Positions 4,615-50,806 of a stretch of DNA of 64,000 bases are shown piece after piece. Below the pieces are notes generated by a model that was given only the letters and a program-made list of their open reading frames with translations, did not search any database and was not told where the DNA came from. Location of the stretch: the NCBI RefSeq assembly GCF_000337535.1, contig NZ_AOIP01000014.1, forward strand, positions 186,001-250,000. Reading direction: 5' to 3'. Position 1 is the stretch's first letter, and the number at the start of each line of letters is the position of its first letter. The position numbers were made by a program, and so were the translations under genes. This DNA comes from Natrialba aegyptia DSM 13077 (GTDB lineage: Archaea > Halobacteriota > Halobacteria > Halobacteriales > Natrialbaceae).

Positions 4615-4645
4615 GTCGTCTCTTCCAGTATGCGACGGCGACGAA

Positions 4646-5626: not shown

Positions 5627-5746
5627 ACAGCGTGTAGGCGCTCGGCCCTTGTGAGGGTTGTCCACGGTCGTGTCACCAGGGGACGCGGCCGTTACCGGGC
5701 GTCCGTCCCGCGGTTTCTTTATGTACTTCCACAATAGATTAGAAAT

Positions 5747-6535: not shown

Positions 6536-6692
6536 CCGAACGGTTTTTCGGTTCGTGATTCGCGGTTTTCCACAGTATCAACCGCTCGGCGTATGGCGGA
6601 CGGCAAGCGGCGAGTAGCGAACGGCGACCTCAAAGGGCGGACGACGAACCCGGACGGCGAACAGCTAACACGATCGGCCCGGAACGATGCCT

Positions 6693-7816: not shown

Positions 7817-7838
7817 GTCGCGTCTGCCCCCGACCTCT

Positions 7839-7877
7839 GACGAATCCGACGAATCCGACGAAATCGACGAAATCGAC
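7839..7877. repeat. 9-bp tandem repeat between genes
   Basis: Four head-to-tail copies of a nine-base unit: GACGAATCC twice, then GACGAAATC twice, followed by GAC. The tract sits in the 96-bp gap between the BKACE gene and yqeC. No function is evident. It is one of several short tandem tracts in this window. Confidence 0.9.
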
Positions 7878-7912
7878 CCAAACCATTAGCCCCCTTCCAT
7901 CGTACCGGGCCT

Positions 7913-8674: not shown

Positions 8675-8728
8675 CTCGGTTGCTCTGTACCCGGTACCGA
8701 GAGCGCGCGAGTTCCGATACGCCGCCCG

Positions 8729-9433: not shown

Positions 9434-9490
9434 ACACGCGTGTTCGGCGACCGGCAACAAAAGTCCGCGGCCGACCGTCTGAATCGAGCG

Positions 9491-10075
9491 TTACTGGTCG
9501 GTAGTGGCGGCCGAGAGACGCCAGAGCGCCCGGTGAACCATCCACAACTCGCAGTCGGTCGTCGTCGCAATCGATCGACAGCGGTCGAGATACGTCTCGT
9601 AGTCGCTCGCCGTTGGTGCGGGCGGGTACGGCTTCGCGAGTTCACCCGCGTCGTAAAGGACGGTCCACTCGCGAGGGCCGAGGACGACGAACTCCTGCGG
9701 GGCGAAAAACATGAGAAAGCCGGTGGCGACCGGAACGTCGACACCGTCCAGTGCGGTGAGGGTATCGATCGCAGCCGTCGCGTCTCGCTCCGGGCCGGCG
9801 GTCGCATCGACCGCGTCCGCGATAGCAGCCCGGACCGCGTCGAACTCGTTCTCTTGAAAGCGCTCTTCTGCGGCTCGTCGCTCGGCGTCGGGATAGGTGC
9901 CGAGAAATCGCCGGTAGTACCACCTGACGACCCAGGCGGCGTCGCGCCACCCGAATGCGTCCGTCTCGAACGCTCGTGGAAGGGTTTCGAGTTGCTCCTG
10001 TTCGACGGGATAGAAGGGGTTCTCCGCCCGGTAGTCGGCCGCTTCCGAACGCACCAGGTCACGCGTGAACTCCAT
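9491..10075 (-). CDS. putative helix-hairpin-helix glycosylase-like protein
   Basis: A 194-aa protein of unknown function. In the middle, LTALDGVDVPVATGFLMFFAPQ followed by a conserved-looking PREW resembles the helix-hairpin-helix and following helix of OGG-type DNA glycosylases and their haloarchaeal relatives. The first half is helical and rich in aromatic and Arg residues (YYRRF). The expected lysine/aspartate catalytic pair cannot be placed with confidence, so enzymatic activity is uncertain. It lies upstream of mobA on the same strand with a 57-bp gap. Confidence 0.65.
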   Translation of the reverse strand: MEFTRDLVRSEAADYRAENPFYPVEQEQLETLPRAFETDAFGWRDAAWVVRWYYRRFLGTYPDAERRAAEERFQENEFDAVRAAIADAVDATAGPERDATAAIDTLTALDGVDVPVATGFLMFFAPQEFVVLGPREWTVLYDAGELAKPYPPAPTASDYETYLDRCRSIATTTDCELWMVHRALWRLSAATTDQ

Positions 10076-10231
10076 CGTGCGACTGTATGGCGCGGGGCGC
10101 TGTTAGCGTTCGCCCGAGGTGGTCGCGTTCCACCCCTCGTCTGGCCGCTCGTCTCCAGTGTGGTAGAAAAACTCATGCACACTCGCGTTGTGAATGCACG
10201 TACCGCGATTCACCACCGAGCGGAGCATCCA

Positions 10232-12340: not shown

Positions 12341-12458
12341 TCCTTGGCGACCGACGACCGACGATCAACGACCGACGACAGAGGCCCACCGATCAGTTTC
12401 GGTGTGCGGTCGGCACTTATGCCCACCGGGACCCAAGAGCGACCAACGGAGAGAACCA

Positions 12459-12884
12459 ATGAAACTACAGATTCTCGACGGCGAAATCGCTATCGACGAG
12501 TCGAGTATCGCCGAATCGGTCGCCGAAATCCGTACGCAGGTACGCGAGTACGAGCGGGGCGACCGGCGGCGCTTCGACCTCGACGTGGACGTTCCCGACG
12601 GGCTAACCGGCGACGTAATGGCCGCGATGATGGCAATCCCCTACGGCGAGACGCGCACGTACGGCGACCTCGCCGCTGACCTTGGAACGAGTCCAGTCGC
12701 CGTGGGTCAGGCCTGCGGCCGCAATCCCGTGCCGATCGTCGTTCCCTGCCACCGCGTCGTCGGCAGCGACGGCGCGCTCACCGGCTACTCGGCGGCCGAC
12801 GGCGTCGCGACGAAGCGCCGGCTACTTGAACTCGAGGCACGCGAGAGCGACGGCCCGGTACAGACGCGATTGCCGACGACGTGA
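12459..12884 (+). CDS. ogt: methylated-DNA--protein-cysteine methyltransferase
   Basis: DNA repair protein that removes alkyl groups from O6-alkylguanine by transfer to its own cysteine. The active-site PCHRV has its cysteine at residue 97, preceded by the helix-turn-helix region TYGDLAADLGTSPVAVGQACGRNP. The 141-aa length from ATG 12459 fits the short archaeal form with a reduced N-terminal domain. A purine-rich CGGAGAG about 10 bp before the ATG can serve as ribosome-binding site. It is separated from fdhA by about 118 bp, so it is probably its own unit. Confidence 0.93.
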   Translation: MKLQILDGEIAIDESSIAESVAEIRTQVREYERGDRRRFDLDVDVPDGLTGDVMAAMMAIPYGETRTYGDLAADLGTSPVAVGQACGRNPVPIVVPCHRVVGSDGALTGYSAADGVATKRRLLELEARESDGPVQTRLPTT

Positions 12885-13017
12885 CGCTATCGGAGAACTG
12901 CTCTCACCTCCCAAGTGATTACAATAATCGGTAAGTACGGACGAAGAACCGACTGGTGTTCATCGCTTCCAGAGTTGTCTGCAAAACACGTTCCGCAGCT
13001 TGCTCCATAGCTCAGGT
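12885..13017. other. spacer before the zinc-protein pseudogene
   Basis: Together with the pseudogene and the bases up to 13260 this makes a stretch of about 375 bp without an intact gene. I see no RNA gene or mobile element here. The composition is AT-richer than its flanks, in keeping with accessory DNA. Confidence 0.5.
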
Positions 13018-13157
13018 ATGTCCACGACCATCACAACACCCGATGCAGACGAGGAATGTGCGTACTGTGGATCGCGTGTCTCTCGACATATATCGACGAG
13101 AACAGCCGTATGTCGGGGAATGCGTGTGAATGGCCGCCTGGTGAACGCAATTGTTGA
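13018..13157 (+). pseudogene. collapsed small zinc-binding haloarchaeal protein
   Basis: From ATG 13018 the frame reads MSTTITTPDADEECAYCGSR, the usual beginning of a short haloarchaeal zinc protein. At bases 13075-13080 the frame changes. The next frame, from 13077, reads CLSTYIDENSRMSGNACEW and ends at TGA 13157, matching the usual end of the same family. As I recall the family, a central segment of about 20 residues with further Cys/His (FDHDPxCVRDC...) is missing. So an internal deletion joined the two ends out of frame. The uncorrected frame stops at 13161 after nonsense sequence. Confidence 0.7.
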
Positions 13158-13260
13158 GTGAGGCACATCGTTAGATCAACATGTGGGCTTACCGTCACGT
13201 TTCTCCGAATACGGACATGATCTGCGAGGCCTATTGAACAGATTTGGTCAGAACAGGAAT

Positions 13261-13452
13261 CTACTCGTTCTCCAGAGCCGCGTAGATTTCGGCGTGACGG
13301 CGTCCGTCGAGTTTTCCCATCTCGAGTGCGATCTCGTGGCGTTCCTCGTCGCTCTCAGCCGACTGATATCGCTCGTACAGCCGGCGGACCTCTTCATCGA
13401 CCGCTGCCGAGGAGTCAGTACTGGACGCCATCGCTGTATCCTGAATACGCAT
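13261..13452 (-). CDS. small acidic partner of the Doc toxin (putative antitoxin)
   Basis: A 63-aa acidic helical protein (core DEEVRRLYERYQSAESDEERHEIALEMGK, given here only as a position guide of residues 19-47 in part) encoded directly after the Doc-like gene. ATG 13452 lies 12 bp after the toxin stop; ATG 13431, with AGGA upstream, is an alternative. No DNA-binding domain is visible, unlike classic Phd. A helical peptide that occupies the Fic active site would be the expected mode of neutralisation, but this is inference. Confidence 0.6.
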   Translation of the reverse strand: MRIQDTAMASSTDSSAAVDEEVRRLYERYQSAESDEERHEIALEMGKLDGRRHAEIYAALENE

Positions 13453-13464
13453 TGAATCCCTTTA

Positions 13465-13863
13465 TCAGTTGCGACGAGCACACGCTCGGAAGTAGATGAC
13501 TGCCGTCTCGGTGTCGACCCCGGCTTCGTCCGTTGCAAATCGGTGCAGTAAGGCGCGAATTTCGTTGCCGTATTCGAACGTATACCCGTTCAGCATATAG
13601 AAGACAACCACTGTTCGGAGTGCAGTTCGTTTGTTCCCATCGACAAACGGATGATTTGCAACGAGGAGTCGCATCAAATGCACTGCTTTTTCGTGACGTG
13701 TTTGTGGGACCTCCCCGAAGAACCCCTCTGACACGTACTGAAGTGCGGATTCAATCGCGTCCTCCGACCGAACGCCTGGTTCCGTATTGTCGCCTTCCGC
13801 AACGATCTGCTCGTGGAGATCGAGAATTAGTTGCTCGGAGGGATACCCGATATCGTCAGTCAC
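13465..13863 (-). CDS. doc: Doc-type Fic domain toxin
   Basis: A 132-aa protein of the Doc (death on curing) family. Doc enzymes phosphorylate EF-Tu and stop translation. The Fic-fold motif HPFVDGNKR is at residues 71-79 and matches the Doc consensus HxFx(D/N)(A/G)NKR. The N-terminus YPSEQLILDLHEQIVAE and the middle HEKAVHLMRLL are typical. The gene is transcribed before its small partner, the reverse of phd-doc order. It lies in a small AT-richer patch with a pseudogene, consistent with acquired DNA. Confidence 0.88.
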   Translation of the reverse strand: MTDDIGYPSEQLILDLHEQIVAEGDNTEPGVRSEDAIESALQYVSEGFFGEVPQTRHEKAVHLMRLLVANHPFVDGNKRTALRTVVVFYMLNGYTFEYGNEIRALLHRFATDEAGVDTETAVIYFRACARRN

Positions 13864-14006
13864 GCTCCCAACTCTCTCGGGCCACCCGATAGTAGTTTCT
13901 GATGAGTGATCTTCCCTGTCAGTACTGTCTAGTTACGCGATTCAGGCATGCGTGGGCGTTCTGTGCAAACTGTTCTATGACACCCTCGGCGAAGTGAGAA
14001 ACCACC

Positions 14007-14435
14007 TTACCCAACATCGTCGTGCGTCAGCAGCGGCCGCTCGCGCTCGCCCGCCGGCGACTCGTAGGTGATCACCTCGAGCAGGTTCCCGTCCGGATCG
14101 AGGAAGTAGAACCCCTCGAACTCGTCCCAGTCGTACGGCCCCTGCTTCGGAAACTGGCCGCCGAGTTCAGCCGTCAGTCGCTCGTACTCCCGTCGATCGG
14201 TCTCGAAAGCGACGTGGGCCTTGTCGAGCGGGTGATCCAGGCCGCGCTCGTCCCAGCCGTCGGCGCGACCGGTTTCGGCCAGCGTGACGACCGTCTCGCC
14301 GACCTGGAACATGGCGTGTTCGCCTTTGAAATCGGACGGCTCGCGGCGGACGTCGAGCCCGAGTTCATCGCGGTAGAACTCGTAGCAGGCGGTGAGGTCG
14401 TCGACGTCGATGTTGATGTGGTCGACTGCGTGCAT
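14007..14435 (-). CDS. VOC (glyoxalase) family protein
   Basis: A 142-aa single-module VOC protein starting at ATG 14435 (MHAVDHINIDVDDL). DHINID near the N-terminus, DKAHVAFE in the middle and FYFLDPDGNLLEVITY near the end supply the usual His and Glu metal-ligand positions. It is the last gene of a unit with three substrate-binding-protein homologues; the gap to the preceding stop is 8 bp. An isomerase, dioxygenase or resistance function is possible, and context suggests it acts on the same compound as its neighbours. Confidence 0.85.
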   Translation of the reverse strand: MHAVDHINIDVDDLTACYEFYRDELGLDVRREPSDFKGEHAMFQVGETVVTLAETGRADGWDERGLDHPLDKAHVAFETDRREYERLTAELGGQFPKQGPYDWDEFEGFYFLDPDGNLLEVITYESPAGERERPLLTHDDVG

Positions 14436-14443
14436 GGGTATCC

Positions 14444-15442
14444 TCAGAGCCGCGGTTCCGTTTCCGACTCGGCGACGCGCTCCGCGTAGTTCCCGATCAC
14501 CTCGTCGTCCGCGTCGATGAACTCGTTCGTCCAGACCGCGTCGGGATCGATCTCGCCCTCGAGCAGGTCCGTCTCGGCGAGCGTCCGGCCGAGCGTCCGC
14601 CAGCGCTCGCCCTCGTGCAAGCCCCACCCTTCCGCCCGCGTCCGGTCGGTGAACTGGAGGTCGGTCGCCGCCGTCTCGAACTTGCGCCGCTCGACGGGTC
14701 GATTCCGCTCGAGCGTCGCGTTGCGTTCGACGAGCACGTCGATCGCCGCGTCGGGATCGTTCGTCGCGGCCGCCCAGCCGCGGGCCGTCGCCCGGAGGAA
14801 GGAGCGGACCGTCTCCGGCTCTGCGCGGGCGAACTCGGGGTCGGTCACGATGGTCATCCCGTAGATGCCGAGGTGGTCCCCGATTGCGAGTTCGTCCGCC
14901 CGCCGGTCGTGTTCGCGCTCGAGTTCGTAGCCGTTCGTGACGACGCCGACGGCGGCGTCGACGCGCCCATCCAGGAGCTTGTGCTGCACGCGGTGGTGGG
15001 TGTGATCGTCGACGCCGAGGAGGTCGACCTCGTCGCGGATACCCGCGTCTTCGAGCAACTGGGCCGTCAGGATGCGCGTTTTGGTCGCCGACGGCGCGAC
15101 AGTCCGGCCCGCGAGTTGCGAAGGTTCGGTCAGCGCCTCGCCGAACTCGTCCCGGAGGGTGTAGATCGCGGCGGGCGTCTTGCCGGTGACGGCGGCGACG
15201 GCGAGCGGGTCGAGCCCACGGCTCTGGATCGAGAGGACGGCGCTCGCGCCCGCCAGCGCGAACTCGGCTCGGCCTCGGGCGGCCTGCTCGGCGGCGAAGG
15301 GCGAGCCGTGGCCCTCGACGAACCGCACGTCCAGCCCCTCGTCGTCGTAGAAGCCGCGATCGCGCGCGAGGAAGTAGGGGGCCTGAAAGCCGTTCGGCTC
15401 CCAGTTGAGTTGGAAGTCGACGGTCGTCGTGTCCGGCGTCAT
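14444..15442 (-). CDS. NMT1/THI5-like substrate-binding-fold protein (third of three)
   Basis: A 332-aa protein with the periplasmic-binding fold of the NMT1/THI5 group. The opening VDFQLNWEPNGFQAPYFLA and DRGFYDDEGLDVRFVEG are diagnostic, and the C-terminal NEFID region is also typical. From ATG 15442 (MTPDTTTVDF) there is no signal peptide or lipobox, so a cytoplasmic location is likely. It overlaps the upstream homologue by four bases (ATGA). No ABC permease or ATPase gene is near. It may be an enzyme (the fold includes THI5-type pyrimidine synthases and dihydroxyphthalate decarboxylase relatives) rather than a transporter component. Confidence 0.85.
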   Translation of the reverse strand: MTPDTTTVDFQLNWEPNGFQAPYFLARDRGFYDDEGLDVRFVEGHGSPFAAEQAARGRAEFALAGASAVLSIQSRGLDPLAVAAVTGKTPAAIYTLRDEFGEALTEPSQLAGRTVAPSATKTRILTAQLLEDAGIRDEVDLLGVDDHTHHRVQHKLLDGRVDAAVGVVTNGYELEREHDRRADELAIGDHLGIYGMTIVTDPEFARAEPETVRSFLRATARGWAAATNDPDAAIDVLVERNATLERNRPVERRKFETAATDLQFTDRTRAEGWGLHEGERWRTLGRTLAETDLLEGEIDPDAVWTNEFIDADDEVIGNYAERVAESETEPRL

Positions 15443-16467
15443 TGCGACGGCACCTCCAGTCGGAACAGGTCGTCCGGAATGTGGTCGACGCCGAGCGCCT
15501 CCGGGCCGGCGACTGCGAGCAGGTGGTCGAACAACTGTTCCATCGCGTCGACCGTCTCCGCGTTCCACTCGGTGACGACCATCTCCCGCCAGTGATCGCG
15601 AACGCCGCGAACGACGGCGGGGTCGTTCTCGTGCATGAGTCGGTCGCCCAACTCCGCCCAGAGTTCATCGTCGGTCTGCAGGCGTTCGACGGCGTCGGCG
15701 TACGCGCGCTTGAACCCCCGGATGGCTTCGGGCTGGTTTGCCAGGTAGTCCTCGCTCGTGAGGAACGTCGAGATGGGCAGCGTCCGCTCGACGCCCGAAA
15801 GCCGCTGGACGAGTTCGGCCATCGGGATCGCTTCGCGGTAGGGACCGGGTTCGACGAGTTCGGGGATGAGTTGCCAGAACTGGAGGGCGGCGTCGACCTC
15901 CCCCTCGCGCAGCAGTCGGGTGAGTTCGACCTTCGAGCCCGCCTCGACCGACGTGGCTTCGGTTTCGGGATCGAACTCGTTGAACTCGCGGCAGGCGGCC
16001 CGTGTGAAAATCCAGTTCTTGTCGAGCCGGCGGACGACGCCGATGCGGTGGCCGGGGAGGTCGGCCAGACCGTCGATCGGCGAACTCTCGGGGACGACGA
16101 GGCCGCCGACGGTTCGGCCGTAGGGATGGAAGGCGACGATGGGTGCGCCGCCGGCCCGCTCGCGCGCCGTCGAGATGTAGTCGATGTCGATCAGATCCGC
16201 GTCGCCCTGGTGCAGTTTGGCCTCGACCGTTTCGAGGCCGTCCTCGAGTTCGTCCGAGACGAGTTCGACGTCGAGGTGGAAGCCGTGGTCGTGGTCGAAG
16301 CCGTACCGCTTGATGGTGTACAGCATGTAGCGGGGGCTGCCGTTGTGTTCGAATCGGGCGCGCAGTTCCGGAAGCTTAATCCTGGTCGCGTCGTCGCTCT
16401 CTGTCCGAGCGGGAGCGTCGTGGAGTTCGTCCAGTGCCGCTTGCTGGGTTTCGATGTCGCTAGTCAT
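15439..16467 (-). CDS. substrate-binding-fold protein (second of three)
   Basis: A 342-aa homologue in the periplasmic-binding type II fold. ATG 16467 (MTSDIETQQAALDEL) leaves no signal peptide. HQGDADLIDIDYIS and LVVPESSPIDGLADLPGHRIGVVRR are the ligand-cleft segments seen in taurine/NMT1-type proteins. It overlaps both neighbours by four bases, so the three are translationally coupled. It is more divergent than the other two. Function is unknown, and an enzymatic or heteromeric role with its neighbours is inferred from the coupling. Confidence 0.8.
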   Translation of the reverse strand: MTSDIETQQAALDELHDAPARTESDDATRIKLPELRARFEHNGSPRYMLYTIKRYGFDHDHGFHLDVELVSDELEDGLETVEAKLHQGDADLIDIDYISTARERAGGAPIVAFHPYGRTVGGLVVPESSPIDGLADLPGHRIGVVRRLDKNWIFTRAACREFNEFDPETEATSVEAGSKVELTRLLREGEVDAALQFWQLIPELVEPGPYREAIPMAELVQRLSGVERTLPISTFLTSEDYLANQPEAIRGFKRAYADAVERLQTDDELWAELGDRLMHENDPAVVRGVRDHWREMVVTEWNAETVDAMEQLFDHLLAVAGPEALGVDHIPDDLFRLEVPSQ

Positions 16468-17372
16468 TGGCTCGAGGGGGAAACGATCGTCCTGATGTCG
16501 GCCCGGTCGTCGATCAGTTCTCGGTCCTTCATCCACTCGAGGTGGCCGTCGAGTTGGTCGGGATCGGCGAGTTCGGGGACCTCGTACCGGGGAACGGTCA
16601 CCGATTCGCGAACGGTTTCGAGGTTAACGCCATCGAAGAGGTCCGGTGCGATCTCGGCGTCCGACTCGAGCATCGCGAGGTACTGCTCGCGGAAGGCTTG
16701 CGGGTCGTCGTTGATCGCCTCGACGGCGCGGCCGTAGGCTCGCATGAAGGCGTCGAGTTCGTCGCCGTCGAGTGTCTCGGTGCCGACGATACCGATGTGG
16801 TTCTCGAAGGCGAGGACCCGCTCGAAGCCGAGGTGATCGGCGAGGGTGCTGTGTGGATCGAGGAGCGTGATGGCATCGATGTCGCCGTCGCGGAGCGCCC
16901 GCAGCCGCTCGGTCGGCATGCCGAAGTGTTCGAGTTCGATTTCGTCGGGGTCGACGTACTCTTCGAGCGCTTTGATGGCGGTGTACTCTTGGCCGGTTCG
17001 GCGATTGACGCCGACGGGGGTACCGGCGAGGTCGGCGGGAATGTCGATCGACGTTTCCGGCCGCGTATAGAGGCTATACGGGAGGTCTGCGAACGTTCCG
17101 TGGGCGACGATTTTGCCGTCATCGAGCGACCAAGTGCGTCGGAGACTCTCCCACTTGCAGACCGGGTAGAGGTCGACGTTGTCGTCGCCCGTCAGCGTCC
17201 AGTCTCCCGGGACGTACTTCCAGTCGACCTGTTGCCGGTCGCGTTCGACCAGTTCGATGTCGAGTCCCTCGTCCTCGAAGTAGCCACGCTCGGCTGCGAC
17301 CCGTTGTGGCAGCATGAACGAGAACGGGAGGTGAAAGATGCGCAGTGCACTCTGCATGTCACTCGATGCCAT
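16464..17372 (-). CDS. substrate-binding-fold protein (first of three)
   Basis: A 302-aa homologue starting at ATG 17372 (MASSDMQSALRIFHLPFSFM); ATG 17357 is an alternative. The sequence AAERGYFEDEGLDIELVE and IPADLAGTPVGVNRRTGQEY mark the NMT1/SsuA-like binding fold. There is no hydrophobic signal and no lipobox. It opens the four-gene unit with a TATA box about 45-55 bp upstream. The cupin gene is divergent from it. The ligand is not predictable; the lack of transporter genes argues against simple uptake. Confidence 0.82.
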   Translation of the reverse strand: MASSDMQSALRIFHLPFSFMLPQRVAAERGYFEDEGLDIELVERDRQQVDWKYVPGDWTLTGDDNVDLYPVCKWESLRRTWSLDDGKIVAHGTFADLPYSLYTRPETSIDIPADLAGTPVGVNRRTGQEYTAIKALEEYVDPDEIELEHFGMPTERLRALRDGDIDAITLLDPHSTLADHLGFERVLAFENHIGIVGTETLDGDELDAFMRAYGRAVEAINDDPQAFREQYLAMLESDAEIAPDLFDGVNLETVRESVTVPRYEVPELADPDQLDGHLEWMKDRELIDDRADIRTIVSPSSQ

Positions 17373-17415
17373 ACAATATGTGACGGCAACGGGCGGCATA
17401 AAACGTTTCTAGGGA

Positions 17416-17428
17416 TGGTTTATATGCC
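17416..17428 (-). promoter_or_regulatory. TATA element for the substrate-binding-fold unit
   Basis: On the minus strand the sequence reads GCATATAAACC, a good archaeal TATA box 45-55 bp before ATG 17372. Transcription would begin roughly 20 bp before the gene. Confidence 0.5.
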
Positions 17429-17514
17429 TGTTAGCGGCGAATACAGTCATCGCTGGCTGAAGTAAGATTCACGTATCGCACTCGCTGAGCATACAGGTAA
17501 CGGCAACTGATATC

Positions 17515-17862
17515 ATGGACCACATACAGACGGCCGATGTCACCGCCGAGGAGGTTGCGGACGGCGTCTATCTCGGCGATCTCTCGATGGGCGACCGGGC
17601 GAGCATGAAATACTGGCGGATCGAACCGGGCGCGACGTTACCCGCCCACGAGCACGACAACGAGCAGATCGGCTACGTGCTGTCGGGAACGCTGATAGCG
17701 ATCGTCGAGGGGGACGAGGTCGTTCTCGAAGAAGGTGACGCCTACCGGTTTCCGAGCAACGAGTATCACGGGGCTGAAAACCGACGCGACGAGCCGGCGA
17801 TCGGACTCGGCGTCCTCGCACCGCCGCGACAGCAGCCGGACTGGCGGACGAACGTCGACTGA
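17515..17862 (+). CDS. cupin domain protein
   Basis: A 115-aa single-domain cupin. PAHEHDNEQIGYVLSG carries H45, H47 and Q51 (Glu in the textbook motif), and NEYHGAEN carries H85, giving a plausible metal site. It is divergent from the three substrate-binding-fold genes with a 142-bp shared upstream region, so common regulation is possible. It could be a small metal-dependent dioxygenase, isomerase or ligand sensor. No signal peptide is present. Confidence 0.85.
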   Translation: MDHIQTADVTAEEVADGVYLGDLSMGDRASMKYWRIEPGATLPAHEHDNEQIGYVLSGTLIAIVEGDEVVLEEGDAYRFPSNEYHGAENRRDEPAIGLGVLAPPRQQPDWRTNVD

Positions 17863-17959
17863 CGAACGGATAGCATAGAACGCCGCTCACTCCTCAGTGG
17901 TCGGTCCATCCTGCTCACGACCGCAATCTGACGCCGCGAACGGGTGAGACAGCAGGCGC

Positions 17960-18192
17960 TCACTCGACTATCGCCAGTAACACGACGACCCCACCGATGG
18001 CCGAGAGACACCCGCTGAGTAGTTTCGTCAATGTGACTTCCACTCGGCCGGTTCGACGGTCCCGGCCGACCGCGTACTCCCGATGGCGTCGAGTTGCTCG
18101 TGAAACCGAGTGATCCCGTAGGCGTGTCGTACGCCGAGAAGTCCGAGTCCCACTAGAACAGTGCCAACCACGATTCCGCCGATCGCGACCAT
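17960..18192 (-). pseudogene. frame-broken small membrane protein (or two overlapping micro-ORFs)
   Basis: ATG 18192 begins MVAIGGIVVGTVLVGLGLLG and continues RHAYGITRFHEQLDAIGSTRSAGTVEPAEW (shown in two parts) before a stop at 18028. One frame over, from 18031, TKLLSGCLSAIGGVVVLLAIVE continues a second membrane helix to a stop at 17960. Together they would form one two-helix protein of about 77 residues. The junction CATTGACG lacks one base to join the frames. Either a one-base deletion has broken the gene or a TTG start overlaps the stop. Similar two-helix haloarchaeal proteins (possibly DUF6199-like, from memory) support the single-gene view. Confidence 0.5.
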
Positions 18193-18305
18193 AGCCCTAC
18201 GCTTATGCTGCTAGTTTAAAAGCTCTCGTTCTCCAACCACTCTCTCCGCAGTTCCGAACCGAGGTCTCAGCCGCCCAAACGCCGCGGGTATCGCGCCAAG
18301 GGACA

Positions 18306-19172
18306 TCAACGATTCCCGCTCCCCGGACCCGGAATCCACGCGAGAACTGAACTCGTCTCGGAAACCGCCGTAGAGACGAGCACCCGATCGCAGTCCCGGC
18401 AAACCCGTTCGATACCGACTTGCGGCCGACGACAGCAGTGTTCGTCCCGCTCGACGCGCCGGGAGAGCGGCCCGCCACAGACGGGACACCGGTCCCGAAG
18501 TATCCGCAGGCCGGTGAGAGTCGCTCGCCGATCCGCGGTGTCGACTGCGTCCCAGCCGTCGAGTCGCGATTCGAGTTCACGAGCGGCGGCGACGTCGGCG
18601 GCGAGGGCCGCGTCCGACGGCCACCGGACCAGTTTTTCGCCGTCGAGTTCGACGGTGCCGACGCCGCGCCGGGTTGCGGTCTCGGCATCGAACGCCGCCG
18701 CCACGGCCGCCGCGTCGACGGTGACGGATCCGTCGTGGTCCGTCCCGGAGCTACCAGCGATGGTCGACAATCGGTCGTCCCACTGCGTCGCAAATCCCGT
18801 CGTGAGTCGCGGTCCGTCCGCCCTTTCCTCGATAACGCCGGCAGCCGAAAGCGCGCGAACCGCGCTCTCGAACTCGGCGGTGTCGATCGAGGGCTGCCGA
18901 TCGGCCGCCGTTCCGACCGCCGCATGAACTCGATCGGGGAGGTATCGCCGCGTAAGGGTCGGCGTACCGGGGAGTAGGTAACCCCGAAGCGCGATGATCC
19001 CGAGGAACGCGACTAACGCGACCGCGCCGACCGCTTCGGAGATGGCGACGCCGAATCCGACCGCGCCACCGAGTGCGATGGCGACGTTTCCGATCGTACA
19101 CGGGAGACAGCGATTCGCGCCCGTATACTCGGGCCGCCTGAGCCGCGAAAACGCATCGGGTAGTCCGGCCAT
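18306..19172 (-). CDS. membrane protein with C-terminal zinc-finger-like cysteines
   Basis: A 288-aa haloarchaeal protein. The N-terminus RLRRPEYTGANRCLPCTIGN has a CxxC just before two transmembrane helices (roughly residues 27-47 and 47-67). A soluble alpha-rich middle follows. Near the end, DRCPVCGGPL and HCCRRPQVGIERVCRDCD give several CxxC pairs able to bind zinc, followed by a short Ser/Gly tail. The type is widespread in haloarchaea, but I know no function. It is divergent from the quinoprotein operon, with a 159-bp gap. Confidence 0.75.
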   Translation of the reverse strand: MAGLPDAFSRLRRPEYTGANRCLPCTIGNVAIALGGAVGFGVAISEAVGAVALVAFLGIIALRGYLLPGTPTLTRRYLPDRVHAAVGTAADRQPSIDTAEFESAVRALSAAGVIEERADGPRLTTGFATQWDDRLSTIAGSSGTDHDGSVTVDAAAVAAAFDAETATRRGVGTVELDGEKLVRWPSDAALAADVAAARELESRLDGWDAVDTADRRATLTGLRILRDRCPVCGGPLSRRVERDEHCCRRPQVGIERVCRDCDRVLVSTAVSETSSVLAWIPGPGSGNR

Positions 19173-19331
19173 TACCGATCACTCGGGTACCGCTTCGTGC
19201 CGAACGGGGAATATACTTGTAGTACGTTCGACATACTGTCGGGATATGATGGCATTATTTCGAACCTATCCGACTGAGACTTAGATAGCACGCCACCTGT
19301 TCGAAGTCTTTGATAATGATTATTCGTTGGT

Positions 19332-20264
19332 ATGTGGGAGAAAACCATGTGTGGTGAGAACATGACGCATGCAAATGCGAAGCGGGAGATCTCAGGCGCG
19401 GACCAAACGAAACTGGCGATGCAACTCGGTGCGACCGAGGTATCCGATCGACCGGTAACGTGGAGCGACCTGGCGGGACGAATCGAACCGGACCGATCGC
19501 CGACGCTCGAGGCCGCCGGCGCGACGATCCGAACTGAACTCGCGGAGCGACTCGACGGCGAAGTACTCGAACGCGAGCGAGACAGGCTTGCGGCCCGGAT
19601 CGAGCGGCTTCCCGAGGTTCGGGAGACCGGCGTTCCGAACGAGCCCCACGGTTGTTACGAGGCGGTGGCCGATCCCGGCTGGCGGCTTTACGAGCACCTG
19701 GCGGAGGGCGAGTTCTTCGAGCGTCTCGACGAGACGCTGCCGCGATTTACGCCCGGACACATCGAGCGCACCGCGCGGGAACTGGTACTGACGACGCCGC
19801 TTTCGGCGGCGCTCGACGATGTCGGGTTCGACGAGTCCGAGAAGACGGCGTTGCTGATCGCCGTCGCGAACGACGCCGATCGGCTCGCCCGGTGGGTGCC
19901 GTCGAACCAGATTCCGGACGGCGTCGAGTTCGATACCGAAACCGTGCCCCCTCTCCACCGGCGCGCGATGGGCGGGGCGCTGCTGTGGATTCGCGGACTC
20001 GACCGGCACCTCTGGCAAAACGAGGTGCTCGTCACCGAGGAAGTCCTCGACGCCGCTGTCGCGCACACGAAGACGATGCTGGGCGGCCTGTTCCTGTCGG
20101 CGACGGCCGCTTGCGATATCGCCACGACGGGGCGGCTCACGGACGAACAGGTGACCGCCGCGTTCGCGGCGGGGACGGCGGTACAGATCGTCGGGCAGGA
20201 GGAGCTGTTACACGAGGTGTTCTACGTTACCGACGAGACGCGCGCGCCGAGCAAACTGAGGTGA
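19332..20264 (+). CDS. helical protein of unknown function, first gene of the quinoprotein operon
   Basis: A predicted all-helical, acidic, soluble protein of 310 aa from ATG 19332, or 300 aa from ATG 19362, which has a GGTGAG four bases ahead. There is no signal peptide, no membrane segment and no recognised motif; one Cys lies near FLSATAACDIATTG and a His in HEVFYVTDET close to the end. It stops six bases before the PQQ-dehydrogenase gene, so the two are coupled. A role in assembly, cofactor handling or electron transfer for the dehydrogenase is inferred from position only. It does not resemble PqqC or other PQQ synthesis proteins as far as I can judge. Confidence 0.75.
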   Translation: MWEKTMCGENMTHANAKREISGADQTKLAMQLGATEVSDRPVTWSDLAGRIEPDRSPTLEAAGATIRTELAERLDGEVLERERDRLAARIERLPEVRETGVPNEPHGCYEAVADPGWRLYEHLAEGEFFERLDETLPRFTPGHIERTARELVLTTPLSAALDDVGFDESEKTALLIAVANDADRLARWVPSNQIPDGVEFDTETVPPLHRRAMGGALLWIRGLDRHLWQNEVLVTEEVLDAAVAHTKTMLGGLFLSATAACDIATTGRLTDEQVTAAFAAGTAVQIVGQEELLHEVFYVTDETRAPSKLR

Positions 20265-43834: not shown

Positions 43835-46192
43835 ATGTCTCACACACCTGCCCTAGACGGCACACTCCACGTCCTTCCGTTCGATAGCGGCTCGCTCGCG
43901 ACCCGCGTCGCCGATATCTACACGACCGCACTCGAGTCCGCGGACGGCGACCCGCGAAACGTCCTGGTCCTCAAACGCCTGCCGACCGGCATCGACGAGT
44001 TCACCGCGGCGCTTCGCGACGCCGCCGAACTCGAGGGGCGACCGAACGTCAAGTCGCTCCCGCGACACGCCGGGATGGTACTCGAGGAGGCCGAGCCGGA
44101 AATAACGCGGCTCGGCTACGAGGAGCGGATCGAGTTCCTCGCGCGGGTGCTCGACGGCTTCGATTGGTCGCCGTACTTCGAGCGGGCGAGCGAGCACGAT
44201 TCGTTCGGCCGCGACGTGGGGCAGGTGTTGCTCGATGCAACGTGGAACGGCGGGTTCGACGTCACTCCGGACGCGGAAGCGCCTCTGGCTGGCACGGACG
44301 ACGAGCGGGAACAGTACGACGCATATCTCCGGGAACTCGCCGCCGTCAACGACGCGTTCCACGAGCGCCTCGCCGAGCGCGACCTGCTCGAACAGGCCCA
44401 GACGATCGAGCGGGCCATCGACGCGCTCGACCGCACGGCGATTCGAGCGCAGATCGAACGCGAGTTCGACGTCGTCCTCGCCGTCGAGTTCGAGGAGTGC
44501 GGTGAACTCGATCGGGAGTATCTGGCGACGCTGACGCGGAACGTCGACTTGCTCTGCGTCGGCGAGGAGCACGCGAGTATCGAGCGCACGAAGACCGAAT
44601 CGGGTTCCGTGCGCGAACTCGCACCCGCGTTGACCGTCGTCGACCACACCGACGAGTCGAACGCGGAGACGACGCCGTCGGTTCCTGGGGCGGAGACCGA
44701 GACCGGGACGGGGACCGAGATGGCCGGTCGGGCGTTCGGATCGTTTCTCGCAACCGGCGGCGGTGGCGACCGGAACGGCACGGTTGCCGGTGACGGGGCC
44801 GATGGCGGCGACGGTGACGGGAACACTGTGAAATCGGACCCTGGGACCGGAGCCAACGAAAACGAGGCGTACGCACGCCTGATCAGCGAACCAACCCTCG
44901 ACCAGCAGGTCGAGGCGGTCGCCAACGAAATCGAGTTCTTGCGAGCGGAACACGGCTGGGAGTACGACGAGTTCGCCGTCCTGTTGCGCCACGTCGGCAA
45001 TCCGATGCCCCGCGTTCGGCGCGTGCTCCAACACGCCGGCGTTCCGACCGCCTCGGCCGGCGTCAACGGCCTCGAACAGGACCTCGCCGTTCGAGAACTC
45101 CACGCGCTCGCGCAGTACCACATCGACGACAGCGAGCGGGCCTACGACCTGCTCGATGCACGAGTACCTGAACTCGACGAGAATCTCATCCAGGGGTGTG
45201 TCGTCCGGAACTCGGTCGCCCAGAGCCTGAAACGCTGGATCGTCACAACCGACCTCAAACGGCGTATCGCGGCTGATACCGAGTCTATCGACGCCAGAGA
45301 GCAGTTTCAGAACGTCTCCAGGCTCCTCTCGATCGCCGAGTTCGTCGACGGACAGGACATCCTCGCCGGCGACTGGATCCAGTTCGTCACGATGCTAGAA
45401 CGCGCGATCACCTACGACGCGCCCTACGCCCACACCGCTGCGGTCTCCGTGCCCGAGGGCGGCGTCACCGTCGGCGACGTGGGACTGCTCAAGAACGACA
45501 GCCGAACGGCCGTCTTCCTGCTCAACGTCGTCGATGGCGAGTACCCGGGTGAGGAAACCCTCTCACCGCTGTTTCCGACCGCCTGGATCAAACAGATGGG
45601 CGGCTATCCGGCGGTCACGAACCCCAGTGCGGCCGACGTGGCGGCGACGTACGCGACGGTCGAGACCGCCGACATCGCCGGCAACGCGTTCGAACGCTAC
45701 CACGACGAACGCGCGCGCCGACAGCTCGCCATCGGCGCACGAGCCGCCGAGGAGCAGCTGTACTTTTGTACGTACCGCCAGACGGACGGCTCGATCGGCC
45801 GGTTACAACACCGCTCGCGGTACCTGCACGCGATCGAGGACTGCCCGCACCTCCGCGTCGAGGAAGTCGCCGGCGTCGGCACCGATCGGGACATCCACAC
45901 CCTCGGCAGCGCGTCGACCGAAATCCTGGCCCAGCCCTGGACCGAACTCGAGCGCATCCAGGCCGAGGCCAGTACGGGCGGCGACGTCGAACTCGAGTCG
46001 ACGGAAGAAACGCTGGCTGCCATCCAGCGAGTTCTCGAAACGCGCGAGACGGTCGACTCCCGGTTCGAGCGCGCCGTCGAGACGCAGTTCGATCTCGCAC
46101 GCGGCGCGGTTCGCCCGGCTGCGGGGCAACGAGTGCCGCACGCAGAGACAGAGACTGAAACTGAGACCGAGACGGTGACGAACGATGACTGA
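43835..46192 (+). CDS. AddB/RecC-like inactive helicase subunit
   Basis: A 785-aa protein with the architecture of an AddB/RecC-type subunit: superfamily-1-like helicase domains without a Walker A motif. LHVLPFDSGSLATRVADIY replaces the nucleotide-binding start; VRELHALAQYHIDDSERAYDL and DVGLLKNDSRTAVFLLNVVDGEYPGEETL are helicase-fold segments, and AARRQL/EEQLYFCTYRQTDGS resembles motif VI surroundings. A Gly/Asp-rich linker (about residues 275-345) and a Glu-Thr repeat tail are present. It overlaps the nuclease-domain gene by eight bases. It probably forms a DNA end-processing complex with the next two products. Confidence 0.75.
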   Translation: MSHTPALDGTLHVLPFDSGSLATRVADIYTTALESADGDPRNVLVLKRLPTGIDEFTAALRDAAELEGRPNVKSLPRHAGMVLEEAEPEITRLGYEERIEFLARVLDGFDWSPYFERASEHDSFGRDVGQVLLDATWNGGFDVTPDAEAPLAGTDDEREQYDAYLRELAAVNDAFHERLAERDLLEQAQTIERAIDALDRTAIRAQIEREFDVVLAVEFEECGELDREYLATLTRNVDLLCVGEEHASIERTKTESGSVRELAPALTVVDHTDESNAETTPSVPGAETETGTGTEMAGRAFGSFLATGGGGDRNGTVAGDGADGGDGDGNTVKSDPGTGANENEAYARLISEPTLDQQVEAVANEIEFLRAEHGWEYDEFAVLLRHVGNPMPRVRRVLQHAGVPTASAGVNGLEQDLAVRELHALAQYHIDDSERAYDLLDARVPELDENLIQGCVVRNSVAQSLKRWIVTTDLKRRIAADTESIDAREQFQNVSRLLSIAEFVDGQDILAGDWIQFVTMLERAITYDAPYAHTAAVSVPEGGVTVGDVGLLKNDSRTAVFLLNVVDGEYPGEETLSPLFPTAWIKQMGGYPAVTNPSAADVAATYATVETADIAGNAFERYHDERARRQLAIGARAAEEQLYFCTYRQTDGSIGRLQHRSRYLHAIEDCPHLRVEEVAGVGTDRDIHTLGSASTEILAQPWTELERIQAEASTGGDVELESTEETLAAIQRVLETRETVDSRFERAVETQFDLARGAVRPAAGQRVPHAETETETETETVTNDD

Positions 46193-47276
46193 CCCCAACT
46201 CCGACGCGCCGACGAACGCCGAACCCGCCACCGAGACGACCACCATCACCGCAACTGAACTCGCGACGCACCTCGTCTGTCCGCGCCGGTACGAGTTCAG
46301 GTTCGAGCGCCCGCTGTCGGCGCGCGAGGGGAGTCGCGATCGGGTGAGAGCGCGTCGTCGGGAACTCCTCCGGCGGCCGATCATCGCCGGGTTGCGCGCG
46401 GATGGTGACGCAGCGGCCGACCGCGTCGATGCCGCACTCGAGCGGTTCGACCGCCACTGGCACTCCTCGCGGGAGTCGTACCTGGCCGACGAACAAGAAC
46501 GGTACGACGAAGAGGCGGTCGCGGCTGCGATCGAGGCCTATTTTTCGAACGGTGGCCACGACCACGCCGAGCGACTGGTCGACGCGGATACCACGCTCGG
46601 CTACGAACGCGACGGGATTCGATACGAGGCTGCCGTCGACGCCGTCGTCGAGCGTGACCGGGGGTATCTCGCGATCAGGTACGTGCCGGATCTAACCGGT
46701 ATCTTACACGTGAGTTGGTCCGACAGCCACGTCCGGGACTTTCTCGACGGCCGGAAGTACTACCCGCGCCAGATCGGCAGCTTCGTCAGGGCGGGCGTCG
46801 CGATTCGCGGGCTCAAAGCCGAGTTCGGAATCGATCTGCCCTGTGACTTCGCTTACGTCGCACCGCTTGCGGAGAGTCGACCGGCCTACGAGTTCGCATC
46901 CGGATCCAAATCCGAATCCGAATCCGAATCCGAATCAGCGTCCGAACCGGGCGTCCACGTCGATATCGCACGCCGTCACTTCGAGGACGCATACGAGGAA
47001 GAGCGGTTGGACCTCGTCGAACTGATCGGAGACCGAGCCGCGGCGATCCGCGCCGGTGAGACCGACCCGCGGGAGCGGCGCTTCGACGAGATAACGGCCA
47101 CCGCCTGCGAGTACTGCGCCTATCGCGACGCCTGTCCCGATCACCTGGCAGCCGAGGTTTCGTTCGGCGACCGGCCGCGTTCGCGCTCCCAGTCGCGGGT
47201 TTCGGGGGATGCCGACGACACGACGGAACACGGCCAGACACAAGATACCGCGGACGCACCGACGGGTGACGACTAA
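46185..47276 (+). CDS. PD-(D/E)XK/Cas4-like iron-sulfur nuclease-fold protein
   Basis: A 363-aa protein. ITATELATHLVCPRRYEFRF is the start of a Cas4/AddB-type nuclease domain with its first cluster cysteine. Three more cysteines near residue 300 (CEYCAYRDAC) complete a 4Fe-4S set. The catalytic core region RYEAAVDAVVERDRGYLAIRYV keeps the first Asp but lacks the usual (D/E)-x-K, so cutting activity may be lost. A Ser-Glu repeat (about bases 46905-46937) lies before the cluster. It looks like the C-terminal nuclease domain of AddB encoded separately. It overlaps both neighbours. Confidence 0.8.
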   Translation: MTDPNSDAPTNAEPATETTTITATELATHLVCPRRYEFRFERPLSAREGSRDRVRARRRELLRRPIIAGLRADGDAAADRVDAALERFDRHWHSSRESYLADEQERYDEEAVAAAIEAYFSNGGHDHAERLVDADTTLGYERDGIRYEAAVDAVVERDRGYLAIRYVPDLTGILHVSWSDSHVRDFLDGRKYYPRQIGSFVRAGVAIRGLKAEFGIDLPCDFAYVAPLAESRPAYEFASGSKSESESESESASEPGVHVDIARRHFEDAYEEERLDLVELIGDRAAAIRAGETDPRERRFDEITATACEYCAYRDACPDHLAAEVSFGDRPRSRSQSRVSGDADDTTEHGQTQDTADAPTGDD

Positions 47277-50200
47277 TGTCGGACGACAACGCGACCGACG
47301 GTGACGCTACCGCCGAACCCGAGTTCGGATCCCGATCACGATCCGCGGAGCCGAACACCGTCGAACCCAAGGGCAACCAATCGGCCGTCATCGCCGCAAC
47401 CGGCGGCGCGCACACGGTCGAAGCCGTCGCTGGCTCCGGCAAGACGACGACGATGGTCAAGCGACTCCGAGCCGAAATCGAAGACCGCGACGTCGCACCC
47501 AACCGCTTGCTGGTACTCACCTTCGCGAACGAGGCCGCACACACGATCCAAGCGAAGCTCCGCGACGAACTTGGACCGCAGGACGCCTTCGACATCGACG
47601 TCTACACCTACCACTCGTTTAGCTCACAGCTCCTGACGGAGTACGCCTACCACGTCGGCGTCTCGCCCGAGTTCGAACTCGTCACCGAGGCAGATCGCCC
47701 GCAACTGATCGAATCCGTGTACGACGAGATCGACTTTTCGTTCGTCGCGCCGGGCGCGCCCTCGGCGGGCGGCACGAACGAGGGCACGCTCTCCGAACTC
47801 ACGTCGTTCATCGAGTCGATGCGCCGCGAGGCGATACGACCGGCAGCCATCCGCTCGTACCTCCCCGACGACGAGGCGCTACGAGCCCTGCTCGACCTCG
47901 TCGGCGACCTCAAGCAAATGGCACACGATGTCATCAACGTCGACGCGAACGATATCATGTGGGCCGACGACGAACTCGCCGAGCGGTGTGACCGGCTGTC
48001 GGTCGTCTACCGCGCCAAGGCTCGCGAGTTCAACGGCGACGGTCCCGTGCAGACCGCCGTCGGAACCCACCTCGAGGCGATGGCCGAGACGGCAACCCGC
48101 GCCGCCGACCACCTCCGGACGGCGACTGAACTCGAGTGGCAGGACTACCGGCTCCCCGAGGCGATGTTCGAGGGGGAAACCGGCCCGCTCACGTCGATCG
48201 CGCAGACGCCGATGGGACGCCTCGACCACTTCGTCCACATGCTTCGGCGGGTGCGAGCGTTCGTCGGTGCCTACGAGGCATACCTCGACGCGCTCGAGGA
48301 GCGCAACGCGTTCGACTACGACGAACTGATCCATCGAACCGTCTCGCTCCTACAGGACGAGACCGTTCGCGGGGACATCCTCGCGGAATGGGATGCCGTC
48401 TACTGCGACGAGTTCCAGGATACGGACGAGTCACAGCTCGAACTGGTCGAAGAGTTGCGCGACGGTCTCGACATCATGGTCGTCGGCGACAGCGATCAGG
48501 CCATCCACGAGTGGCGCGGCCAGGACCCCGAGAACATGTCGAACCTCCCGGCGAGCTTCGAGGAGATCGGACTCGAACTCAACTTCCGATCGCGGCAGCC
48601 GATCCTCGACCTGGCGACGAATCTCGATCCCGAAAAGGACGCTATCGAGGCGTACAAGGAGCCGAATCCGCCGAACGTTTTCAAAGTCGACAGCGAGGGA
48701 GAGCGCACGCCCGCCCAGGTGAGCACGACGATTTCCCACCTCCTTACGGGGCGGTTCGAGGACGTTCCCGACCGCGACCTCTCGGATATCGCCGTCCTCG
48801 TCCGACGCAACCAGAACGCCAGAGACGTCGCCGCGCAACTCGACCGGGACAGCATCCCCTACACGCTCTCGAGCGACGCCGCCGGTGATCTCGGGCACGG
48901 CGTTCGGACCGTCCTCTCGTACTTCCGGATTCTCGTCTCGCCGGACGACGACGTGAGTTGGCAGCGCGTCCTCCTGCACCTCTATCGGATTCCGGAGGCG
49001 GACATCGATACGCTGTTGACCGCGGGCGAAACGGTTCCGGAGGGATACGAGGCGCTCACGGATGCGGACACCGCGCTCGCTCGCCCCGACCGCGTTCGCG
49101 ACGCGCTCGCGGACTACGATCGACTGCGGTCGGTTTCGACGACGCACTCCATCTCCGAACTCTACCGTCACTTCAAGCGCGAGACGCGGATCGACTGGTT
49201 CCTCCGCGAGAGCGACCGGGATGCCCTCTCGAACGTCGAGCGCCTGATCGGCGCATTCAACGATAGCCCGGTTCAGTCCGGGCTCACACCGGCGTTCGTC
49301 GACTACCTGGAACGTCAGGCACACCTGCTCTCGGCCGACGACGAGACGGCGACGAGCCCCGGCTCGCAGTCCGACGACGCCGTCGACATCATGACCGTCC
49401 ACCAGGCCAAGGGCCTCGACTTCGATACCGTCTTGCTGCCCTTCCTCACCGAATCCGAGTTCGGCCACATCACACTCGAGAACTACCAGCGAGACCTCTA
49501 CCGCTACGACGTACTCGTCGACGACATCCAAGGCGAGTTGGACGATCCGCTTCGAGCCGACTGCAGCGACGACCAGATCGCGGAGGAGTGGCGCGTCCTC
49601 CACGTCGCGCTCACACGGGCGAAAGAGCGTCTCTTCCTGTTCGGGAACGACGTCGAAGACGCCGGTCCAGGCGCCGATCTGTTGGATACTCACCTTCCCG
49701 ACGAGACGAGTGATACCCCGGTTCACTGGTCGGCCGAGGGGCCGCGACTGCCCGTCTGGGATGCACTGATGGACAGCTACGACGACCTCGCGGATCGGAC
49801 CCCTTCGGCCGTCCGGGACTCCACCGACGCCGTGAACCGCGGCGTGGACGAGGACCCCGGGACGATCACGTACTACCAGTCCGAAGTCACGACCGAACGG
49901 GCGCTCGAAACCGTCCTCGAGTTCGCCGACGAAGTCGTCGCCGGAACGCTTGCGAACGACGACCCCGAGACGGACGCCGCGACCTCGCGTTTCGCCGACG
50001 CGCCACTCGGCGGAACCGTCGACGCCGAACTGGCGCGCCAGCACAGCCACACCGCACTCGAAGCCGTTCGAAACTGCGAGCGAAAACACGTCCTCGATCA
50101 CGTGGTCGACGCGTTTCCCGATCCGATCGCCGGCACGGCAACGGAATCCACACGCACCCACACCCACACCCACACCCCGGCCGACGTCGGATCGCTCTTC

Positions 50201-50806
50201 CACGCAGTCGCCGAACTCGCCTACTGGCGCGACTACGACGACCGCGGCGACTGGCGAACGGCGTGTACCCGCCTCGCCCAGAGCCGTGATCTACAGCCCG
50301 CGCTCGAGCCAGCACTCGACTGTATCGATCGGTACTTCGAAACCGACGGTTCCCGCTGGCCCGCCGTCGGCTCCGAAGTCCCCATCACCGCCACGGACAT
50401 CCCGGACGTGGCCGGCGATGTCACCGGATACGTCGACACCGTTCGCCGACATCCGGACGGTGGCCTCGCCGTCCTCGACTACAAGACGAGCCGAACGCGA
50501 AACGAACTCGAAGAAAGTCACCAACTGCAACTCTACGTCCGAGCCTGTCGGGACCGCTTCGACGATCCCATCACCCACGCCGGCTACGTGTACGTCGGCG
50601 AGGCCGGTCCGGCGACGGAACTCTTTGCGGTTTCGGAGTTGGAGCCGTTGTGGACGGACGTACTCGACGATTTGCAGGCTGCGGACGAATCGGCGTTCGA
50701 GAACGCGACCCCCGGTTCGCACTGCCGGTTCTGCGAGCACCGCTCACTCGGATGCCCGCAAGCCGAGTTCAGCTACGAGGACGAGTTCCGCGTCGATCGC
50801 CGGTGA
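47276..50806 (+). CDS. AddA-like UvrD helicase with C-terminal iron-sulfur nuclease domain
   Basis: A 1176-aa helicase-nuclease. Walker A AGSGKTT is at residues 52-58, motif II DEFQD at 378-382, then ELNFRSRQPI, VMTVHQAKGLDFDTVLLP and ALTRAKERLFLF for the later superfamily-1 motifs. The C-terminal RecB-type nuclease has DYK at 1068-1070 (VLDYKTSR) and QLQLYVRA. C934 with C1150, C1153 and C1160 form an AddAB-type iron-sulfur site. It would resect double-strand ends together with the two preceding products. The start ATG shares a base with the previous stop (TAATG). Confidence 0.9.
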   Translation: MSDDNATDGDATAEPEFGSRSRSAEPNTVEPKGNQSAVIAATGGAHTVEAVAGSGKTTTMVKRLRAEIEDRDVAPNRLLVLTFANEAAHTIQAKLRDELGPQDAFDIDVYTYHSFSSQLLTEYAYHVGVSPEFELVTEADRPQLIESVYDEIDFSFVAPGAPSAGGTNEGTLSELTSFIESMRREAIRPAAIRSYLPDDEALRALLDLVGDLKQMAHDVINVDANDIMWADDELAERCDRLSVVYRAKAREFNGDGPVQTAVGTHLEAMAETATRAADHLRTATELEWQDYRLPEAMFEGETGPLTSIAQTPMGRLDHFVHMLRRVRAFVGAYEAYLDALEERNAFDYDELIHRTVSLLQDETVRGDILAEWDAVYCDEFQDTDESQLELVEELRDGLDIMVVGDSDQAIHEWRGQDPENMSNLPASFEEIGLELNFRSRQPILDLATNLDPEKDAIEAYKEPNPPNVFKVDSEGERTPAQVSTTISHLLTGRFEDVPDRDLSDIAVLVRRNQNARDVAAQLDRDSIPYTLSSDAAGDLGHGVRTVLSYFRILVSPDDDVSWQRVLLHLYRIPEADIDTLLTAGETVPEGYEALTDADTALARPDRVRDALADYDRLRSVSTTHSISELYRHFKRETRIDWFLRESDRDALSNVERLIGAFNDSPVQSGLTPAFVDYLERQAHLLSADDETATSPGSQSDDAVDIMTVHQAKGLDFDTVLLPFLTESEFGHITLENYQRDLYRYDVLVDDIQGELDDPLRADCSDDQIAEEWRVLHVALTRAKERLFLFGNDVEDAGPGADLLDTHLPDETSDTPVHWSAEGPRLPVWDALMDSYDDLADRTPSAVRDSTDAVNRGVDEDPGTITYYQSEVTTERALETVLEFADEVVAGTLANDDPETDAATSRFADAPLGGTVDAELARQHSHTALEAVRNCERKHVLDHVVDAFPDPIAGTATESTRTHTHTHTPADVGSLFHAVAELAYWRDYDDRGDWRTACTRLAQSRDLQPALEPALDCIDRYFETDGSRWPAVGSEVPITATDIPDVAGDVTGYVDTVRRHPDGGLAVLDYKTSRTRNELEESHQLQLYVRACRDRFDDPITHAGYVYVGEAGPATELFAVSELEPLWTDVLDDLQAADESAFENATPGSHCRFCEHRSLGCPQAEFSYEDEFRVDRR

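Follow-up and report, generated by a model that had tools for sequence, protein, structure and literature searches.

A putative three-subunit AddAB/AdnAB-type helicase-nuclease with a split AddB-like chain in Natrialba aegyptia and related haloarchaea

The DNA analyzed here is a 64,000-nucleotide (nt) stretch of Natrialba aegyptia DSM 13077 (contig NZ_AOIP01000014.1, positions 186,001 to 250,000), referred to as the window. It carries three genes on the forward strand, here called P1, P2, and P3 (Table 1). We believe, with a probability of about 0.8, that their products form a three-subunit AddAB/AdnAB-type helicase-nuclease, which would load on double-strand DNA ends and resect them. The folds, motifs, gene order, co-inheritance, and a clade-specific loss of one nuclease were established by computation. 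From these we infer a physical complex, its polarity, end resection in vivo, and a residual role of P2. AddAB-type enzymes are of an already known kind; what is new here is the split of AddB/AdnA and the lineage-specific loss of the P2 nuclease. The end-resecting enzyme of haloarchaea is not settled, hence the interest of the trio. With an operon of the AddAB/AdnAB type that is near-core in one haloarchaeal family, the question is directly accessible to gene deletion.

Folds and motifs of the three proteins

Pfam finds the UvrD N and C domains and PDDEXK_1 in P3. Across 40 homologues, the helicase motifs AGSGKT, DEFQDTD, and QAIHEWRG, the nuclease residues H976, D1054, D1068-Y-K1070, and Q1083, and the cysteines C934, C1150, C1153, and C1160 are conserved or invariant. 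A preliminary description of this DNA had reported three overlapping genes, the last with complete helicase motifs, a DYK nuclease, and four cysteines; the open reading frames, which were found to overlap by 8 nt and 1 nt, and the P3 motifs are as it described. NCBIfam places P3 nearest to PcrA, Rep, AddA, and RecB, all far under the equivalog cut-offs (134 bits for AddA, cut-off 707.65), and the AddB equivalog matched neither P1 nor P2. The full P3 profile matches PcrA, AdnB, AddA, and RecB; a profile restricted to the nuclease domain finds AdnA/AdnB and Cas4, not AddA. In HH profile-profile comparison, P3 was closest to single-chain UvrD-Cas4 fusions (E 6e-80).

GxGK[ST] and GK[ST] are absent from the first 60 residues in all 111 P1 homologues, which bears out the earlier remark that P1 has no Walker A. 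The motif-II position reads E-F-E-E. Pfam gave no match for P1, and single-sequence PDB searches with P1 and with P2 gave no meaningful match. When the P1 profile was compared with PDB sequences, Bacillus subtilis AddB was the best match (E 2.6e-9), followed lower down by UvrD1 (8e-7), PcrA (0.006), and AdnA (0.007). The AlphaFold2 model of P1 (predicted local distance difference test score, pLDDT, 81.5; predicted template modelling score, pTM, 0.82) covers residues 2-766 of B. subtilis AddB, with 624 residues aligned and a Z of 25.3, and residues 23-779 of AdnA, with 570 aligned and a Z of 22.9. UvrD-type helicases gave Z values of 27-30 over 435-523 residues, and RecC gave 17.8. By the query-normalised template modelling score of Foldseek, AddB was the top match of the model (0.58). 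HH comparison related P1 to unsplit archaeal AddB (98.4% probability over 671 columns) and to the UvrD-Cas4 fusions (98.2%). The AddB-like helicase fold of P1, on which the preliminary description depended, was found both by profile and by model.

The P2 profile found no relative in PDB, so the fold of P2 rests on its predicted model (pLDDT 80.3). Pfam matched only the C-terminal end of PDDEXK_1, slightly below the cut-off. The best structural match of the model was the AdnA nuclease (residues 789-1039; Z 16.9, 235 residues); AddB 785-1137 was also matched (Z 14.9, 269 residues), as were Cas4-family proteins. The HH probabilities were 91-96% for AddB C-termini, 96% for the UvrD-Cas4 nuclease, 94% for the P3 nuclease, and below 3% for the AddA nuclease. 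The models of P1 and P2 tile a single AddB chain; therefore, the idea of an AddB made as two polypeptides holds, with the addition that they tile AdnA equally and the parent could equally be AdnA. A split of an AddB/AdnA chain at the motor/nuclease boundary is thus the arrangement that these models support.

The catalytic H, D/E-x-K, and Q were compared in 41 aligned P2 sequences. All were kept in 19, and essentially all were lost in 22; in two of the latter (L035 and L036), an acidic residue is retained and the Lys is gone. D152 and the four cysteines (C32, C308, C311, and C317) are kept in 41/41 sequences and in 68/68 of a second set. The intact motif set is H...D...DYK...Q. On an unrooted P1 tree of 79 sequences, the P2 states (32 intact, 46 dead, and 1 partial) are split by one branch with a support of 100 in the SH-aLRT (Shimodaira-Hasegawa-like approximate likelihood ratio test), and at minimum one change is needed. 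Judged by its residues, the P2 nuclease of the clade of the window is catalytically dead, and the loss is clade-specific. The earlier view of P2 as a lone Cas4/AddB-like Fe-S (iron-sulfur) nuclease domain agrees with the model and the four invariant cysteines. Its claim that (D/E)-x-K was lost is right for the clade of the window, with R-Y-V at 165-167, and wrong for the sister clade, in which DYK is kept. The intact state agrees with the nuclease superfamily and is for this reason read as probably ancestral, and the change as a loss and not a gain. The title of the 2009 paper of Yeeles et al. presents the Fe-S cluster in enzymes of the AddAB type as essential for binding broken DNA; cysteines retained without catalysis fit such a need.

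Gene order and distribution

The order P1-P2-P3 on the same strand was found at 40/40 loci of the first set (Halobacteriales). In an independent set, it was complete at 73 of 80 named loci, and the remaining seven end at contig edges; P3 was interrupted at one of the 73. With this recurrence, the arrangement is no accident. The order is kept at all Halobacteriales loci with sufficient contig, and P2 is everywhere an open reading frame separate from P1, so that the AddB C-terminal nuclease is never on the same polypeptide. Neighbour clustering found no conserved fourth gene, RecD included, and many of the clusters were spurious antisense open reading frames. P1 of the window is 96% identical to an N. 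taiwanensis protein.

Of 146 Halobacteriales genomes, 44 contain a P1 homologue, with only weak matches in two of the 44. In the family of the window (Natrialbaceae), P1 of either clade was present in 109 of 125 genomes, and in 98 of the 111 high-quality ones. P1 is near-core in this family and accessory elsewhere. The clade with dead P2, which includes the window, is almost all Natrialbaceae and mostly chromosomal. The clade with intact P2 is of mixed families, mobile, and often plasmid-borne, and several of its members lie in defence islands. Their neighbours include type III restriction-modification (R-M) genes (L206, L211, and L214), BREX-5 pglZ with R-M (L208), and pAgo with PLD (L209); at other loci the neighbours are conjugation, Cdc6, or metabolic genes. 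Two genomes carry both clades (G063 with L046 and L073; G100 with L044 and L061).

Comparison with known enzymes and alternative readings

AddAB as generally described has Fe-S cysteines in AddB only, and AddA is not known to carry an Fe-S nuclease. P3, the AddA counterpart, differs in carrying an Fe-S nuclease with four invariant cysteines. Like AddAB/RexAB of Firmicutes and alphaproteobacteria, the trio combines one active superfamily 1A (SF1A) motor-nuclease with an inactive helicase-like/Fe-S nuclease partner, and P1 and P2 together match AddB along its length. It is unlike AddAB in that this partner is two polypeptides, in that its scores fall short of the equivalog cut-offs and the ionic-latch residues are not conserved, and in that the second, AddB-type nuclease is dead in the clade of the window and intact in the sister clade. 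In AdnAB of mycobacteria and other actinobacteria, both partners are a UvrD-like motor with a RecB-like nuclease, one of the motors being vestigial. This domain content is seen in P3 and in P1 and P2 taken jointly, but the AdnA counterpart is split; AdnA itself is one chain with an active nuclease. The clade of the window resembles RecBCD in having one active nuclease and a dead nuclease-fold domain in the partner, as in RecC, which P1 also resembles. Unlike RecBCD, the operon has no RecD, and the dead domain is a separate protein retaining four Fe-S cysteines. The UvrD-Cas4-like fusions (PMC5704561) share with P3 a UvrD helicase and an Fe-S Cas4-like PF12705 nuclease, but they stand alone or are R-M-linked and have no P1 or P2 partner.

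Unsplit archaeal AddAB-like pairs consist of an AddB-like chain of about 1020-1120 residues and an AddA-like chain of about 1080-1280 residues; the AddB-like chain is whole, and the pairs are distant from the trio. They occur in genomes from outside the haloarchaea but within the same phylum (L111-L116; AddA NCBIfam E about 1e-100). Three haloarchaeal plasmids (L203, L204, and L205) also carry them, with chains of 1018-1116 and 1212-1277 residues, adjoining R-M, DUF1156/SNF2, or ParA genes. These plasmid pairs represent an additional AddAB-type system of haloarchaea, separate from the trio. Since unsplit pairs exist in other archaea, the trio is novel in its split and its nuclease loss; an archaeal AddAB is not new in itself. 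No description of a split AddAB form was found in the literature searched.

AddAB unwinds DNA with a single SF1A motor, scans the 3' strand with a helicase-like domain, and has two nucleases for cutting the two strands (PMC4824097). By analogy, P3 would be the sole 3'-5' SF1A motor and carry an active Fe-S nuclease, and P1, a helicase-like subunit with a dead motor, would scan or channel the unwound strand. P2 would correspond to the C-terminal part of AddB/AdnA, but encoded by its own gene and translationally coupled. The mobile clade has intact nucleases in both P2 and P3, so that one may be available for each unwound strand. In the clade of the window, P2 is most likely a structural, DNA-end-binding Fe-S module, and with P2 dead the layout would come down to one nuclease (P3), as in RecBCD. 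The two clades, with one or two nucleases in the same architecture, offer a natural comparison for the role of the second nuclease and of the Fe-S cluster. We tentatively suggest, while thinking it somewhat doubtful, that the trio is a distinct haloarchaeal three-subunit class, in which a mobile two-nuclease defence form entered Natrialbaceae chromosomes, lost one nuclease, kept its Fe-S cysteines, and became a main double-strand-break resection machine there, arriving independently at the one-nuclease layout of RecBCD.

Several points weigh against a three-subunit end-resecting enzyme. The trio is patchy outside Natrialbaceae. The ionic latch of AddB is the pair E129-R629 (PMC4824097), and this pair is unconserved in the P1 alignment, where column 134 is T/E/A/D and a 575-605 insertion lacks a conserved Arg; Chi-like control, if any, is therefore likely different. 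The copies on plasmids in defence islands suggest that the ancestral role may have been the destruction of foreign DNA. NurA (PF09376) was found in 129 of 146 Halobacteriales genomes, the genome of the window included, and also in H. volcanii. The trio thus exists alongside NurA and a HerA-like ATPase and may not be the principal enzyme of resection.

Alternatively, the three genes would be independent and only adjacent, P1 and P2 not working with P3. Against this, gene order and coupling are retained between clades that have no further neighbours in common, and P1 plus P2 correspond to the known partner of a P3-type subunit. The distance matrices of the three proteins also match (mirror-tree r 0.97-0.99, within and across clades), a correlation that partly reflects the common descent of adjacent genes. 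We consider mere adjacency very improbable. Equally improbable is a programmed frameshift at the P1/P2 overlap, which would give a fused AddB-like protein and make the split only apparent. It could appeal to the short overlaps conserved in nearly all loci. In one clade the P1/P2 junction is nearly always of the ATGANTGA type (8 nt), whereas the other clade mostly has ATGA (4 nt). The two need different frame relations and thus opposite shifts, which argues against frameshifting and favours coupling by termination-reinitiation. A separate start codon is present in each overlap, and no natural in-frame P1-P2 fusion was seen among about 110 loci. Frameshift and fusion explanations of the split were rejected on the junction frames and start codons.

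Two other readings carry more weight. The trio may be an AdnAB with a split AdnA and not an AddAB: the best structural match of P2 is AdnA, the P3 nuclease profile finds AdnA/AdnB and not AddA, and both subunits have nuclease domains. The P1 profile, however, prefers AddB over AdnA, and we regard this assignment as a serious candidate that we do not favour. A defence helicase-nuclease degrading invading linear DNA, with repair secondary, is suggested by the type III R-M, BREX-5 pglZ, and pAgo/PLD genes that adjoin mobile-clade copies and by the closeness of P3 to the UvrD-Cas4 fusions, a class linked to defence loci (PMC5704561). This is unlikely as the primary role, since P1 is near-core in the family of the window, the trio there has housekeeping neighbours, some mobile-clade neighbours are non-defence genes, and PADLOC gives the trio only a generic GajB/DRT-type helicase similarity.

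Feature coordinates and neighbouring genes

Table 1. Positions of the trio and related features (window coordinates unless a locus is named; aa, amino acids)
Feature	Position	Strand
P1, AddB/AdnA N-terminal helicase-like (putative inactive motor) subunit, 785 aa	43835..46192	+
P1 residues 8-757, SF1 helicase-like fold matching AddB 2-768	43856..46105	+
P1 loop at Walker A position, PFDSGS	43877..43894	+
P1 motif-II position EExxxxDR (E220, E221, D226, R227), invariant in 70 sequences	44492..44515	+
P1/P2 stop-start overlap, 8 nt, ATGACTGA	46185..46192	+
P2, Fe-S RecB-family nuclease domain on its own (AddB/AdnA C-terminal part), catalytically degenerate here, 363 aa	46185..47276	+
P2 residues 14-327, nuclease fold matching AddB 785-1138 and AdnA 789-1039	46224..47165	+
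P2 C32, first cluster cysteine	46278..46280	+
P2 D152, sole catalytic Asp kept in all homologues	46638..46640	+
P2 165-167, RYV replacing DYK	46677..46685	+
P2 C308-x2-C311-x5-C317, other cluster cysteines	47106..47135	+
P2/P3 stop-start overlap TAATG, 1 nt	47274..47278	+
P3, AddA/AdnB/UvrD-type motor and Fe-S nuclease, 1176 aa	47276..50806	+
P3 Walker A AGSGKT (52-57)	47429..47446	+
P3 motif II DEFQ (378-381)	48407..48418	+
P3 Fe-S nuclease domain (about 909-1160)	50000..50755	+
P3 C934, fourth cluster ligand	50075-50077	+
P3 catalytic DYK (1068-1070)	50477..50485	+
P3 C1150-x2-C1153-x6-C1160	50723..50755	+
Unsplit AddAB-like pairs	L203:6056-13242, L204:5558-12245, L205:5278-11965	
Conserved plasmid block	L206, L211, L214 (about 1573-19943); L207 (8052-19946)	

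The relevant passages of two recent reviews describe halophilic archaea as lacking herA and nurA, or as having no apparent copies of them, and these passages do not mention an AddAB/RecBCD-type enzyme of haloarchaea (PMC7776575; PMC12977600). The NurA domain matches in halophiles contrast with this statement. In the genome of the window, a NurA-domain protein (424 aa) lies near a HerA-like ATPase (696 aa) at L220:5139-10862 (G000:C15:25138-30861). The trio as a HerA-NurA replacement was rejected on the occurrence of NurA. The Pfam models of the Rad50 zinc hook and the SbcC Walker B had no match in this genome; they missed H. volcanii too and are therefore uninformative on Mre11-Rad50.

In the window, the neighbours of the trio are SurE, tRNA-Ala, S10, and EF-1alpha. 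A DUF7343 gene, a candidate winged-helix regulator, lies on the same strand about 600 bp upstream of P1 (42811-43209). Public annotation of the trio is piecemeal ("DNA helicase UvrD", "PD-(D/E)XK nuclease", "ATP-dependent DNA helicase"). For P1 homologues, the label "DNA helicase UvrD" (e.g., NZ_CP095488.1) is misleading, as they have no Walker A. Loci L104-L110 are single-chain UvrD-Cas4-like fusions.

The block conserved on mobile-clade plasmids comprises a divergent DUF4143 AAA ATPase, the trio, a hypothetical gene, and a PLD/"tyrosyl-DNA phosphodiesterase" gene; type III R-M is part of it in L206, L211, and L214, not in L207. On a Natrinema zhouii plasmid (L213:5284-9529), metallophosphoesterase and SMC/AAA_27 genes lie upstream of the trio on the same strand, a Mre11-Rad50-like pair with weak LmuB similarity; this setting is in keeping with a role of the trio in end resection. 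On a Salinigranum plasmid (L209:3151-7992), the pAgo and PLD genes are directly upstream and co-directional. Degraded copies also occur: P3 is cut to 529 aa in L060 and interrupted in L199. L119 holds a lone 311-aa P1 fragment, whose coordinates equal those of a Halorubrum lacusprofundi record.

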